From a virus: 25,019 nt of DNA. The notes below the pieces were generated by a model. The model did not search any database and was not told the DNA's origin. It was given only the letters and a program-made list of their open reading frames with translations. The stretch's first letter is position 1; every line of letters begins with the position of its first letter. The position numbers and the translations under genes are program-made. This document shows, in pieces, positions 2,627 through 8,402 of this stretch. The stretch covers positions 1 through 25,019 of IMG/VR virus record IMGVR_UViG_3300046455_000199; one strand, given 5' to 3'.

Positions 2627-3103
2627 ATGACACAGAACACTAAAGACGCAGTGCCACGCGCCGAAGTATTGCGCATTATCGAGACGTACCGAGTAAGCGT
2701 CGGCAACAGCGCTGCGGGAGCAATCGCATGCGAAATGACGATGGCGAACCTGAAGGACATTCGCGATGCCGTGCAAGCTCTCGCCCCCACCGCCGAGCAG
2801 GCAGAGGGAGTGCGGGCCGGTGAGCGGTTCGTCCTCGACGAGGTTTGTGACGAGAGAATCCGTCAAGACAAGCAATGGGGCGGCGACAAGCACGATGACG
2901 AGCACGGACCGATCGAATGGCTCGGCTTCATCGACTATCAAGCCGACAAGGCAATCTCCGAAACGGCGGGACTGCAAACCGATAGATCGATTGCGCCGTA
3001 TGTTCGCGCTCGGCTGGTGAAGATCGCCGCCCTTGCGGTAGCCGGGATGGCATCGATCGATCGCTGCTTTCCTGATGCTGCATCTACCGGGGATCAGGCA
3101 TGA
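2627..3103 (+). CDS. MazG-like / all-alpha NTP pyrophosphohydrolase-related phage protein
   Basis: The core, about residues 70-145, has the layout common in phage MazG-like proteins: CDERIRQDKQWGG, then DKHDDEHGPIEWLGFIDYQADKA, then ARLVKIAALAVAGMASIDR. In the all-alpha NTP-pyrophosphatase fold the acidic residues (here the DDEH segment and neighbouring E/D) hold Mg2+ for dNTP hydrolysis. I infer nucleotide-pool cleansing or steering of host metabolism, but substrate cannot be told from sequence. The start at 2627 is preceded by AAAGGATTGACGAT. An upstream start in the same frame would overlap the previous gene by more than 150 bases. The stop overlaps the next ATG by four bases. Length is 158 aa. 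Confidence 0.65.
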   Translation: MTQNTKDAVPRAEVLRIIETYRVSVGNSAAGAIACEMTMANLKDIRDAVQALAPTAEQAEGVRAGERFVLDEVCDERIRQDKQWGGDKHDDEHGPIEWLGFIDYQADKAISETAGLQTDRSIAPYVRARLVKIAALAVAGMASIDRCFPDAASTGDQA

Positions 3104-3870
3104 GCCGCATCGTCTGCCAGTTCTCCTGCGGCGCAGCCTCGGCGGTGACGACCAAGCTGGCCCTCGCGGATTACGGCGATCGCACGGTGATCGTCAACGC
3201 GTTCATCAAGAACGAGGACGAAGACAACCGCAGATTTCTTTCCGACTGCGAGAAATGGTTCGACCGCACGATCACCGTGCTGCGCGATGAGAAATACGAC
3301 GCTGACATCAACGTGGTGTTTCGGCGAGTGGGATACATCAAGGGGCCGCAAGGTGCCGCCTGCACCTCGCGGATCAAGCGCGGGCTTCTGAAAAGCTTCG
3401 AACAGCCGGGCGACATTCTGGTGCTTGGCTACACCGCCGATGAAAAGTGGCGCTATGACGACTGGCTCGACAACTGGCCCGATCGTCCGATCATCGCGCC
3501 ATTGGTGGAGCGTGGCCTCACCAAGGAAGACTGCAAGGCTATGGTCGAGCGCGCGGGCATCCGCTTGCCGATGCAATATCGCCGCGGCTACAAAAACGCC
3601 AATTGCAAAACCTGTGTGAAAGGCGGCCTTGGTTACTTCAGGGCGGTCCGCGAAGACTTTCCGGAAGAGTTCGAGGAGCTTTGCATATCGGAAGACCATG
3701 TGGCGTCGCTACACGGTGAGCAAGCGCGAATTCTCCGTCATAGGTCCGGGCCGTTGAAGGGGCAGCGATTTGCCTTGCGAGAACTGCCGCCTGGCCCAAT
3801 TGAACGTGATGATGCGCCGCCCGAGTGCGGGCTCTTCTGCGAGGCAGCCGAACAGGAGTATTCAGCATGA
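3100..3870 (+). CDS. PAPS reductase-like PP-loop ATPase-family protein
   Basis: The 256 aa protein starts with a PP-loop-like strand and loop, MSRIVCQFSCGAASAV, a phage variant of the SGGKDS motif of PAPS reductases and adenine-nucleotide alpha hydrolases. CTSRIKRG (88-95) matches the family's CT-x-x-K/R motif, and LVLGYTADEKWR (108-119) is the usual hydrolase-loop strand. Four cysteines follow in two pairs, CKTC (169-172) and CGLFC (243-247), a possible Zn or Fe-S site. True sulfate assimilation is unlikely in a phage early operon. Relatives such as DndC act in phosphorothioate DNA modification, so a role in nucleic-acid or sulfur modification is an inference. It is coupled to both neighbours by ATGA overlaps. 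Confidence 0.8.
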   Translation: MSRIVCQFSCGAASAVTTKLALADYGDRTVIVNAFIKNEDEDNRRFLSDCEKWFDRTITVLRDEKYDADINVVFRRVGYIKGPQGAACTSRIKRGLLKSFEQPGDILVLGYTADEKWRYDDWLDNWPDRPIIAPLVERGLTKEDCKAMVERAGIRLPMQYRRGYKNANCKTCVKGGLGYFRAVREDFPEEFEELCISEDHVASLHGEQARILRHRSGPLKGQRFALRELPPGPIERDDAPPECGLFCEAAEQEYSA

Positions 3871-5222: not shown

Positions 5223-5281
5223 TCGAGCAGGAAGCGCAGAGGGTTATCGACAAAACCAAGGACGCATGGGGTGTGAAATGA
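5219..5281 (+). CDS. Possible 20-aa leader/small protein between two coupled junctions
   Basis: A GTG at 5219 overlaps the preceding TGA (GTGA) and has GAGG at 5210-5213 with 5-base spacing. The frame reads VIEQEAQRVIDKTKDAWGVK, and its TGA overlaps the ATG of the excisionase (ATGA at 5278). The two coupled junctions suggest a translated small ORF that passes ribosomes to xis. No homolog known to me; chance cannot be excluded at 20 codons. Confidence 0.3.
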   Translation: MIEQEAQRVIDKTKDAWGVK

Positions 5282-5478
5282 AAATCAGGCTCGACGAATG
5301 GCTGAAACGTGAATTCGATCCGCCGCCGGCTATCCGCACGGCGCGGCTCTGGATCAATGCTGGCAAGATATACCCGGCGCCGGTGAAGGTAGGCCGCTCA
5401 TACTATGTCGAGCAGAATGCAGTATTTCAGGACGGCAAGACCGTTCGCGCGCCCCTCGCCCAACGCATCCCACAATAA
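5278..5478 (+). CDS. xis: Excisionase (lambda Xis-like)
   Basis: This small DNA-bending protein would steer the integrase toward excision. The 66 aa sequence follows the lambda Xis pattern: a Leu-x-Glu-Trp start (RLDEWLKREF), then ARLWINAGKIYPAPVKVGRS, which is the winged-helix recognition helix followed by the 'I-P-P-V-K-x-G-R' wing, and YYVEQNAVF. The ATG at 5278 gives the lambda-like N-terminus MKIRLDEWL; an in-frame ATG at 5266 would add four residues. It lies two bases upstream of the integrase start, the usual xis-int order. Function is inferred from this pattern and from position, and both agree. Confidence 0.85.
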   Translation: MKIRLDEWLKREFDPPPAIRTARLWINAGKIYPAPVKVGRSYYVEQNAVFQDGKTVRAPLAQRIPQ

Positions 5479-5480
5479 TC

Positions 5481-6572
5481 ATGGCCGCACGCCCCCGCAT
5501 CCGCACCCGCGCCAACTGGCCCGACAACCTTCACATGCCGCGCGAAGGCTATTACACGTGGCGCGATCCGCGCGACGGCAAGACCCACATCCTCGGCCGC
5601 ATCCCGCTCGCGCAAGCTATCCACGAAGCGCAGGGAGCCAACCTCATTGTCGAGAAAGGCAAGCCCACGAAGTCGCTCGCCGAGCGCGTGCATCAGGATA
5701 CGCACACGGTCTCGGACCTCCTGAAGAAGATGCCGGTCAAGGGCGCGGTGAATACTATCCGGAACCGGAAATACTTCGACGCGCACATCGAGAAATGCTT
5801 CGGCTCTGTGCCGTGCGCCGACCTGACGACGAAGCACGTCGCCGACATGCTGGAAGACCTGATCGACGCCGGCAAGGCACCATGGGCCAGAAATCTCCGC
5901 TCGCGGATCATTTCCGTGTGCAAGCGCGGCGCGGCGCTGGGATGGATGGCCGGCAATCCGGCCGCCAATACGGAACAGGAAGAAATCACGGTGAAGCGCC
6001 GGCGGATTCGCGGCATTGAGGAATTCAACCTGATCTTCGAGAAGGCGCCGGAGGTCAGCGACTGGCTTCAGAACGTGATGCTGCTCGCGCTTGTCTCGGG
6101 ACAGGACCGCTCGACGTGCGCGCGCTGGGAGCGCAACTCCGTGAAGGATGGAATAGCTTCAGTGTTTCGCCAGAAAACGAAGGTGCATATCGAAATCCCG
6201 ACGTCGCTGCGGCTCGACGCAATCGGCATGTCGCTCGCCGACGTCATCGCGCGGTGCAAATCGACCGGCGTCGTCAGCAAATACCTGATCCATCACGTGC
6301 GCAACACTGGCGGGGCGAGTAGCGGACAGCCGGTCAAACTGGAATCGATCACCATGGCATTCGCCGCAGCGCGCAAACTGGCCAAAATCACTGGCGACGA
6401 CGTTCCGAGCTTTCACGAAATCCGCAGCCTGGCGAAACGCCTTTATGAAAAACAGGGTGGAGTCGATACGAAAGCATTGCTCGGACATATGACAGAAACT
6501 GCCGCCGACCTTTATGGCGACAGCCGCGGTGCAGAGGCAATCCGGGTCAAAATTGGGGTGAGCAATGGCTAG
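5481..6572 (+). CDS. int: Lambda-type tyrosine integrase
   Basis: This site-specific recombinase would join attP to attB. Residues 1-60 are the lambda arm-type DNA-binding domain (WPDNLHMPREGYYTWRDPRDG). About 70-170 is the core-binding SAM-like domain, and 175-363 is the catalytic domain. Catalytic residues visible are K232 or K234 in RQKTK, H312 and R315 in FHEIRSLAKRLYEKQ, H336 in LLGHMTE, and the nucleophile Y345 in ADLYGDSRG. The box I arginine is probably R210 in SGQDRST, one position later than in lambda (TGQRVGD). The 363 aa length is normal. The ATG is 2 bases after xis. Its stop overlaps the start of a second gene carrying a similar arm-binding domain. Arm sites and an IHF site are proposed downstream of that gene. 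Confidence 0.95.
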   Translation: MAARPRIRTRANWPDNLHMPREGYYTWRDPRDGKTHILGRIPLAQAIHEAQGANLIVEKGKPTKSLAERVHQDTHTVSDLLKKMPVKGAVNTIRNRKYFDAHIEKCFGSVPCADLTTKHVADMLEDLIDAGKAPWARNLRSRIISVCKRGAALGWMAGNPAANTEQEEITVKRRRIRGIEEFNLIFEKAPEVSDWLQNVMLLALVSGQDRSTCARWERNSVKDGIASVFRQKTKVHIEIPTSLRLDAIGMSLADVIARCKSTGVVSKYLIHHVRNTGGASSGQPVKLESITMAFAAARKLAKITGDDVPSFHEIRSLAKRLYEKQGGVDTKALLGHMTETAADLYGDSRGAEAIRVKIGVSNG

Positions 6573-7068
6573 ACCGAGAAAGACGGGCAGGAAACTGCTG
6601 CCCGACAACCTCTATGTCCTGAAGCGGGCCGGCGGCGATTACTACAGCTATAGAAATCCTGTCACCGGGAAAAGCCAGTCAATCGGATATGACTTGGCCG
6701 CTGCGGTCGATATTGCTGAACGGTCAAACCGCGAAGCAGAAAAAGAAATTATCGACGGGTCAGCTAAGAGCGCACTATTTTCCCATCAGGAAATAATTGG
6801 CCAGTCCTATCCTTTAGGCGGCTATCCGGGAATCTATTTCCTGATCAGCAAGGGACAAATTTTGTACGTCGGTAAATCGACAGACGTTGAATTCCGACTG
6901 GGCCAACACCGCGCCCGGCGAAAGATTGAATTCGATTCCGTCTTTATCATCGAATGTCCCGCCACGGAGCTTGCGCGGCTTGAGGCACGGTACATCCGAA
7001 CGCTAAGGCCGCCATTGAATTCGGCAATTCCGCTGGCCGTTTTACCATCGCCCGCTGCCGAGTTATGA
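6565..7068 (+). CDS. Integrase arm-binding domain fused to GIY-YIG nuclease domain
   Basis: Residues 1-56 are clearly a lambda-Int-type arm-binding domain: MARPRK, then LLPDNLYVL, then GGDYYSYRNPVTGKSQSIGY. The pattern is shared with the adjacent integrase and is, if anything, closer to canonical. Residues 86-155 are a GIY-YIG nuclease: G89-I90-Y91, Y101-V102-G103, catalytic Arg111, His115, metal-binding Glu140 in ARLEARYI, and Asn152 in RPPLN. There is no recombinase catalytic domain. The ATG overlaps int by 8 bases and is preceded by GGGGTGAG, so it should be co-translated with int. I infer a nuclease that is brought to attP arm sites. Possible roles are cutting rival attachment sites, regulating recombination, or homing. 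It could instead be a chimeric homing endonuclease that captured the domain. Domain calls are firm; the biological role is open. Confidence 0.88.
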   Translation: MARPRKTGRKLLPDNLYVLKRAGGDYYSYRNPVTGKSQSIGYDLAAAVDIAERSNREAEKEIIDGSAKSALFSHQEIIGQSYPLGGYPGIYFLISKGQILYVGKSTDVEFRLGQHRARRKIEFDSVFIIECPATELARLEARYIRTLRPPLNSAIPLAVLPSPAAEL

Positions 7069-7240
7069 ACAAATTGTGCACGCCTGTTGAACAGCCCAAG
7101 CCCAGTAAGGCTTTGCGGTACGAAGCTCATTTCTGATACAAATATTGCAATGACCGTGACTTTTGCCAAATAAAACAACTGGTTATCGGCAAAAAACAGA
7201 GAAAACTTAAGGGCAAAAACGTCCTATCGCGCCGTAAACA

Positions 7241-7253
7241 AATCAAGCACTTA
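7241..7253 (+). promoter_or_regulatory. Candidate IHF binding site in the att region
   Basis: AATCAAGCACTTA matches the IHF consensus WATCAANNNNTTR at every specified position. IHF bends attP in lambda-type recombination. One match of this kind can occur by chance, but its place next to int supports it. Confidence 0.5.
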
Positions 7254-7347
7254 CGCAGGGTTTTGAACATAAAAACGGAAAAGACGCTGGGAGGTGGGTT
7301 CCTTCGACACACTGGCGCCCTTCATCCGTATTACCAATAAATTCCAA

Positions 7348-7385
7348 CCAGGCTACCATGCGTTACCGGCGAGATAACCGGTAAC
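7348..7385 (+). repeat. Conserved 15-base element plus inverted repeat upstream of the methyltransferase gene (copy 1)
   Basis: CCAGGCTACCATGCG (7348-7362) recurs with one mismatch at 8429-8443. It runs into an 8-bp perfect inverted repeat, GTTACCGG (7362-7369) and CCGGTAAC (7378-7385), with an 8-base loop. TACCAT inside the element resembles a -10 box, but no good -35 is evident. Possible moron promoter or regulator site. Confidence 0.45.
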
Positions 7386-7424
7386 AAGAAAGAATCTGAC
7401 AATTACGAGAGACGAGGACACTCG

Positions 7425-8402
7425 ATGTTGAGCCGGTATAAATCTGCACTGTTCCAGCATTTGAACGCCCATTCGGGCAAAGACGTGGCACCTTGGGTCA
7501 AGGCGTTCTGTCACGAAATGTTTTCCCGACCGCGCAGTGCCAGGCTCATCTATACGGCATCAGTGCGGTGCAGGACCAGAATCCGCGACCGGATCGCGAG
7601 CCGAAGTCTTCAAGGGGTAGGCCTTGAGATCGGCGCGCAGAACGTGCCGACAAAGGTCAATAGCCACGCAGCGAGAACTGAGTACATCGACCGTCTGACG
7701 CGCGAGCAAACGTCAGTGCAGTTCGGGATTCCGCTAGAGAAGCTGGTGGAAGTGACGCACCTGATCGACGGCGGCCGCCTCGAAAAATTTGAAAACGGCT
7801 CACGCGATTACCTCATTGCCAATCACGTGCTTGAGCACTTTGACGATCCGGTCGGCGCGGTCATAGAGTGGCTACGGGTTCTGGCGCCGGGCGGCCGGCT
7901 GTTTCTTTCGCTGCCTAACTTCCGCAATAACCCCTTCGACTTCCGGCGCCGGCCGCCGACAGCCCGACACTTCGAGCGCGACTTTCAGGACGCAAATCAC
8001 CGGGTGGCAAGCGCCCGCGATCACTATGCGGACCTGATCCAGTCAATCTACCAGTTCGAGGAAAGCGATCCGGTGATCTATGCAACGGCGGATAAGTGGG
8101 TCAGCGAAGGAGACCGAAACCACTATCACGTGTACGACGAGCAGGCATTTCGTGATGTCCTGAGACTCGCCGGCGAGAAGTCCGGAACTGGCCTCCAGAT
8201 CATCGATTACTTCCTGCTCGATTCTGCGTTCGAATATATCGTGGTGCTGGAGAAGGCAGCAGAACCGGGCACTATCGTATGGCCGGATCCGGTCAAAAGC
8301 CGGGCGCGCGCCGTCTCATTGCTCGCAAGACAGACAGTCGCAGACGTGATCCAATTTTATGCAGCACGCAAACAATCGAAATCCCAAGCGGCGACTGTGT
8401 GA
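7425..8402 (+). CDS. Class I SAM-dependent methyltransferase (moron candidate)
   Basis: The protein has 325 aa. SAM motif I is the variant GLEIGAQNVPTKV (66-78), typical of a subfamily of bacterial methyltransferases that begins 'LEIG-x-x-x-x-P'. EYIDRL (86-91) follows as the motif II acid. Then come ANHVLEHFDDPVGAVIEWLR (132-151) and LAPGGRLFLSLPNF (153-166), matching Methyltransf_11. C-terminal segments (FDFRRRPPTARHFERDF; NHYHVYDEQAFRDVL) resemble enzymes found among sugar and glycan genes. It has its own upstream element and lies between attP and the late genes, so it is probably a cargo gene expressed in the lysogen. Surface glycan modification (lysogenic conversion) is a plausible inference; DNA methylation is less likely because no N6A/C5 motif is present. 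Confidence 0.8.
   Translation: MLSRYKSALFQHLNAHSGKDVAPWVKAFCHEMFSRPRSARLIYTASVRCRTRIRDRIASRSLQGVGLEIGAQNVPTKVNSHAARTEYIDRLTREQTSVQFGIPLEKLVEVTHLIDGGRLEKFENGSRDYLIANHVLEHFDDPVGAVIEWLRVLAPGGRLFLSLPNFRNNPFDFRRRPPTARHFERDFQDANHRVASARDHYADLIQSIYQFEESDPVIYATADKWVSEGDRNHYHVYDEQAFRDVLRLAGEKSGTGLQIIDYFLLDSAFEYIVVLEKAAEPGTIVWPDPVKSRARAVSLLARQTVADVIQFYAARKQSKSQAATV

Follow-up and report, generated by a model that had tools for sequence, protein, structure and literature searches.

The integration module of the virus considered here ends with a gene that raises a question: why should a nuclease carry the DNA-binding domain of a phage integrase, and which DNA could it be addressed to? The window, that is, the whole stretch analyzed, comprises 25,019 bases of an IMG/VR virus record; the gene (positions 6565 to 7068, + strand) encodes a protein of 167 aa in which an arm domain of the lambda Int type is joined to a GIY-YIG nuclease. 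A sequence-only reading of this DNA had proposed a nuclease directed to the arms of attachment sites. We analyzed the gene by means of Pfam, an AlphaFold2 model, and the comparison with 13 further lineages (indicated with L and a number), the fusion family being surveyed in one contig collection, which includes many fragments.

The fusion gene, its product and its neighbors

The fusion gene follows xis and int on the same strand. The xis gene (5266–5478, +) codes for an excisionase (PF07825, E 2.5e-17; PHROG 629) and is the upstream partner of the int module, while the product of int (5481–6572, +) is a tyrosine integrase of the lambda type, in which an arm domain (PF09003), a core-binding domain (PF22022), and a catalytic domain (PF00589) were identified; about 98% of its length aligns with the HK97, 434, and LESphi3 integrases at 33–35% identity. 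The start of the fusion gene overlaps the int stop by exactly eight bases (ATGGCTAG, 6565–6572, +), as had been noticed from the sequence; overlaps of the same type, also of eight bases, occur in L012 (TTGGCTAG) and L221 (GTGGGTAG). Moreover, a Shine–Dalgarno-like sequence (GGGGTGAG) lies within the 3' end of int, ahead of the start of the fusion gene, whose translation might be coupled to that of int via the overlap.

As regards the other neighbors, a gene for a SAM-dependent methyltransferase (7425–8402; PF08241), which is likely a prophage-end cargo, is located just past the attP region. Upstream of the xis-int module, the window harbors a gene for a PAPS-reductase-like protein (3100–3870; PHROG 424, E 1.5e-41) and a gene resembling phage DNA cytosine methyltransferases (1004–2170), with a DNA match to several phages.

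The Pfam scan assigned residues 2–57 of the fusion protein to Arm-DNA-bind_1 (PF09003; E 1.1e-12, 48.3 bits against a cut-off of 22) and residues 88–150 to GIY-YIG (PF01541; E 9.7e-8, 32.6 bits against a cut-off of 22.6), the overall layout being an arm domain (1–57), a linker (approximately 58–86), and the GIY-YIG domain (87–155). The same scan retrieved no recombinase catalytic domain (PF00589); therefore, the protein is not an integrase. The complete GIY-YIG set previously described for it (GIY 89–91, YVG 101–103, R111, E140, and N152) is present and, in the alignment of 13 lineages, Y91, Y101, G103, R111, H115, E140, and N152 of the nuclease are invariant, position 90 being either I or V. 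Neither NUMOD nor UvrC partner domains were found by the domain scans.

The AlphaFold2 model, built from an alignment of 15 sequences, has a mean pLDDT of 79.7 and a pTM of 0.46, so the placement of the two domains relative to each other is unreliable. In this model, residues 16–65 form a three-stranded sheet plus a helix, and the arm domain matches the lambda Int N-domain 1kjk (49 residues at 1.4 Å, Z 7.4, 39% identity); residues 85–157 adopt the GIY-YIG fold (Z 11.1 with UvrC, 1yd6, and Z 8.9 with I-TevI, 1ln0). Probing the solved structures with a profile of the fusion again retrieved the lambda Int arm domain and the GIY-YIG families. According to these data, the first 56 residues or so do correspond to an arm-type domain, as previously claimed, and the protein possesses the sequence and fold features of both PF09003 and the GIY-YIG superfamily.

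Distribution of the fusion and of related nucleases

The arm-domain/GIY-YIG fusion is harbored by 14 lineages in viral contigs, the window included. It immediately follows a lambda-type int in nine of them (the window, L012, L014, L192, L214, L220, L221, the L255 group, and L261), the other five being L196, L200, L201, L210, and L339. The PF09003 cut-off was exceeded in all 13 lineages scanned, and L339 was recognized by a locally built arm profile. The arm-domain profile retrieved L012 and L013/L014, and two profiles of the GIY subfamily (A6 and A7) retrieved the wider family. The window protein alone as a query did not match any viral or genome contig, and the A3 profile scan found three viral loci only and none in genome contigs; both searches rely on short exact patterns, with which absence is not proven. 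The fusion in the window is thus not a chance product, since 13 other lineages have a gene with these two domains; its homologs do not lie mostly away from integrases. The L201 and L339 genes have a dN/dS of about 0.08, which shows purifying selection in this one pair. The GC content is 50–53% in the fusion genes versus 59–63% in int.

Some individual loci deserve mention. In L012, an in-frame TAG (2178–2180) right behind the arm domain of int divides the gene into one piece with only the arm and another with an integrase lacking it, and represents either a sequencing error or a real disruption. In L192 (record G008), the genome search with PF00589 reported no integrase, yet the local integrase profile detects an ORF of 407 aa (2e-179); because of this miss, "no integrase found" has to be regarded as weak evidence. 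A nuclease of the same subfamily with no recognizable arm domain is encoded directly 3' of a lambda-type int, and is followed by an IHF-like site, in L225 (2710–3342; also L298). Another frequent architecture of the GIY subfamily has a longer N-terminus (L197–L207, L213, L216, L238, L248, and L002/L003), and many of these N-termini bear a motif resembling RYRPLDVVARAR; phage BL4 (L002) has its GIY gene behind one annotated as small terminase.

The relationship between the two arm domains was then considered. In eight lineages, the distances between fusion arms correlate with those between Int arms (Mantel r 0.67, p 0.0008), a correlation that partly reflects shared descent, and the correlation of the GIY distances with the Int arm distances is weaker (Mantel r about 0.4–0.46, p about 0.04–0.05). 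The nearest relative of the fusion arm domain is not the arm domain of its own Int. A recent capture of the latter was rejected, the fusion arms being about equally close to the arms of other integrases. In the GIY tree, a single clade of arm fusions was not rejected (p-AU 0.40), a value compatible with one as well as with several origins. Furthermore, the third strand differs consistently in the clade of the window, reading S-x-S-[IL]-G-Y in the fusion versus T/S-x-[IV]-L-G-R in Int; therefore, the fusion arm domain may read a sequence different from that read by Int.

In eight lineages (L211, L217, L219, L227, L249, L348, L349, and L354), the same nuclease subfamily is preceded by an AP2-like N-terminus, with a strand-strand-strand-helix arrangement in the structure model and no arm-domain Pfam family at the cut-off. 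An integrase is found in the records of six of the eight, and in all six it adjoins the nuclease gene, on the same strand in L211 and L217 and divergently in the other four. In L211, L217, and L249, the N-terminus of the nuclease resembles that of the adjoining AP2-type integrase (in L217, MASIVQYSGGWRAHIYVGGVRESAVFKNKFDAESWAEERETEL beside MASFRKSGKGWRAEIAKKGIRDSATFPTKREAQEWAAKRESEI). Five loci (L249, L348, L349, L201, and L339) have a sequence resembling a tRNA 3' end between int and the nuclease gene, which is probably the att core, and a tRNA-Met gene is located just upstream of the nuclease gene in L217. As a separate observation, plasmid pMsip01 of Methylovorus (L009, 2294–3202), which is conjugative, carries next to umuDC a further member of this GIY subfamily, whose N-terminus is AP2-like, with a LuxR-type HTH behind it.

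The five fusion lineages lying elsewhere than behind a lambda-type int are of particular interest. In L201 and L339 the integrase is of the AP2 type, yet the nuclease bears a lambda-type arm domain, and the sequence (TGA)ATCAA....TTACGCAGGGTTTTGAACA is placed directly at the stop codon of the fusion; these elements are nearly identical to the IHF/P-arm element of the window, that of L339 matching it in full. L196 and L200 possess integrases of other classes, and in L210 no integrase was recognized near the fusion in the stretch read, though the record holds one. A role as cofactor of the phage's own Int hardly fits these orphan copies.

Arm-site-like repeats and the optional cassette

The putative attP region of the window (7069–7424, 46% GC) was delimited through the alignment with relatives lacking the fusion gene ("empty" relatives, as opposed to "filled" ones), using the HK97 layout as a yardstick. 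It would consist of an array of P'-arm sites, an IHF-like site, and a P-arm site. Three candidate P'-arm sites are arranged on the + strand as an 11-bp tandem array: TTATGAACA (7063–7071), which contains the stop codon of the fusion gene, the diverged TTGTGCACG (7074–7082), and TGTTGAACA (7085–7093). The array is homologous to the intact ones located 3' of int in the empty L175, L181, and L184. The IHF-like site AATCAAGCACTTA (WATCAANNNNTTR; 7241–7253, +) follows the pattern AATCAA....TTA and is kept in the relatives; a candidate P-arm site, TTTTGAACA (7261–7269, +), occurs about 20 bp after its start in all the relatives examined. The attP core was not located within 7069–7424.

In the empty relatives, three direct repeats with a period of 11 come immediately after the int stop; they read TTTTGAACA in L175, L181, and L184, and those after the stop of Pseudomonas-type integrases are TTTTGGGG-like. 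The score of the period-11 array was reached by none of 500 shuffles in L175, L181, L184, and L098, and by one of 500 in the window, and the tandem-repeat analysis with shuffles recognized no arm array in L261 and L221. The P' arms of HK97, flanked by int on one side and by the annotated att core on the other, are in the same place as the period-11 arrays. Position and pattern thus suggest that the repeats are arm sites.

The comparison of filled and empty relatives was possible for four pairs, whose int genes are 85% identical (the window vs. L175–177), 86–87% (L012 vs. L184/185/189), 94–95% (L014 vs. L180–182), and 94% (L255 vs. L098). In each of the four, the gene is inserted precisely where the int stop meets the first arm-like repeat, with only the last int codons altered. 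Hence, the fusion gene is an optional cassette, polymorphic at a fixed point, and in this respect has the optional insertion typical of a free-standing homing endonuclease. No long co-conversion tract appeared in the filled/empty alignments, where the cassette flanks follow the recipient clade; the cassettes of the window and L012 are alike only in their last codons and at the right boundary. The GAAC core is intact in four of the nine arm sites of the window, L012, and L014 versus 16 of the 18 of the empty relatives. Self-protection by degraded arm sites was dropped as a general rule, since L214 and L220 have clean arrays.

Possible role of the fusion and comparison with known systems

The explanation that we favor, with a probability of about 0.5, is that the cassette encodes a homing or marker-exclusion GIY-YIG endonuclease, which would find the arm sites of attP via its integrase arm domain. 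The cassette has int on one side and the attP arm-type sites on the other; with another integrase class, it is separated from int by attP. It is probably expressed together with int. In related phages that do not carry the cassette, the arm domain would bind the arm-type sites of attP, whereupon the GIY-YIG domain tethered to it would cut the DNA beside them, at the junction between the 3' end of int and attP. Repair from the cassette-bearing phage would then copy the gene in, as in the intronless homing of T4 Seg nucleases, and place the rival phage at a disadvantage (marker exclusion). In the phage's own genome, the inserted gene parts the arm sites from their former neighboring sequence, which might confer immunity. 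Binding, cleavage, homing, and immunity are here inferred from sequences and genome layouts.

The general idea of a nuclease addressed to attachment-site arms thus gains strong genomic support, based on the profile and fold of the arm domain, the adjacency to arm-site-like repeats, the recurrence of AP2-like versions beside another integrase class, and the arm-site DNA abutting the gene where int belongs to another class. The suggestion that the nuclease acts on related phages is also the favored one, in a form that the sequence-only reading had not proposed, namely that of a mobile optional cassette. Several aspects count against this explanation. The cassette flanks follow the recipient clade, with no long tract of co-conversion; the arm domain of the fusion is not nearest to that of its own Int and, with its different third strand, may read another sequence; L214 and L220 are filled and their arrays are nonetheless intact, so that they would attack themselves unless the cut were made elsewhere; an overlap coupling the gene to int is not what homing genes usually show; and the filled/empty polymorphism could be due to losses rather than gains.

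In principle, the gene might act in the same way and spread only with its phage: the nuclease of a resident prophage or of a co-infecting phage would cut or nick an incoming attP of shared arm-site type, blocking its integration. The target logic is the same as in the homing/exclusion cassette, the orphans (L196, L200, L201, L339, and L210) would strike a foreign lambda-type attP with no danger to their own, and there are weak PADLOC matches, in the GIY part only, to the candidate PDC-S14. We consider this possibility unlikely, since plain exclusion does not require an insertion always at arm sites, and self-protection would be needed in the nine lineages where the nuclease and the neighboring int share the arm class. 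It is improbable, in turn, that the arm domain represents a generic AP2-like DNA-binding module and the nuclease has an unrelated target (host DNA, or phage DNA elsewhere), its position reflecting a hot spot where accessory genes gather at the ends of prophages. Accessory genes are indeed common near att sites and the GIY subfamily has many other N-termini away from integrases, but the arm-domain versions are concentrated at int/att, DNA resembling arm sites abuts the gene even with an int of another class, and a hot spot alone leaves integrase-type domains on a nuclease unexplained.

A further possibility is that the protein serves its own Int, with the extra arm domain competing for or bridging arm sites, or the nuclease processing att intermediates, thereby tuning integration versus excision. 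The overlap with int speaks for it, as do the homology of the two arm domains and the correlation of their distances. We judge it quite improbable: phages with an 85–95% identical Int and the same attP layout do without the gene, in five lineages the integrase next to the gene belongs to another class or none was recognized in the vicinity, and competition needs no strictly conserved nuclease residues. The dominant-negative regulation of Int, one of the roles previously put forward, appears less likely on the first two of these grounds, and nothing was found in support of another, the processing of recombination intermediates. Lastly, a decaying or non-functional fusion, generated by chance recombination of int with a nuclease gene, is hardly credible. 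It might be invoked for the sporadic distribution and the L012 copy beside an int with an in-frame stop, but the presence in 14 lineages, the invariance of the catalytic residues in the 13 aligned, and the low dN/dS of the L201/L339 pair largely refute it.

Returning to the homing/exclusion cassette, we may tentatively depict a wider scenario, in which integrase-mimic nucleases are widespread among temperate phages and have arisen for at least two arm-domain classes. They would patrol attachment sites, cutting attP (or att junctions) of rivals with a common arm-site type and inserting their own genes by homing at the int-attP junction; prophages would thus compete at the integration site itself. 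If this were true, a homing or exclusion nuclease would choose its target in a new way, by borrowing the site-recognition domain of a recombinase, and the site that a rival needs for lysogeny would be the very site attacked. This, in turn, would explain the patterns of presence and absence at int-attP junctions and provide a nuclease class with readable target rules (arm-type sites). It would also open the competition of prophages at attachment sites to direct tests, with the filled/empty pairs as ready substrates and controls.

No description of the arm-domain/GIY-YIG fusion was found in the open-access literature, which was the scope of our search; the word "integrase" is absent from the 2006 survey of the GIY-YIG superfamily (PMC1564403). 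Among known proteins, the arm-binding domain of lambda Int (PF09003; 1kjk, 2wcc, 1z1g, and 5j0n) resembles that of the fusion in its sequence, above the cut-off, its three-stranded sheet plus helix, and the identity with 1kjk; in the fusion, however, a nuclease takes the place of the core-binding and recombinase domains, and the third strand of the arm domain is unlike that of the neighboring Int. I-TevI and UvrC share with the fusion the fold and the GIY, YIG, R, E, and N positions, whereas neither NUMOD nor the UvrC partner domains were found in the fusion. The GIY-YIG phage-defense proteins (PADLOC PDC-S14 and PD-T4-3) are likewise nucleases on mobile elements, with a weak profile or fold match to the nuclease part; however, the PDC-S14 match covers only the GIY part, about 60 of 301–320 positions rather than the whole model, the matched stretch has no arm domain, and these proteins have no reported tie to attP. 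The T4 Seg nucleases are free-standing, optional GIY-YIG enzymes, encoded between conserved genes and responsible for intronless homing and marker exclusion (PMC1564403, PMC6083498). Like SegF and SegG, the fusion is a stand-alone optional GIY-YIG gene between conserved phage elements; unlike them, it has an N-terminal integrase arm domain as its DNA-binding part and is placed at the int/attP of temperate phages, its cleavage and homing activities being putative.
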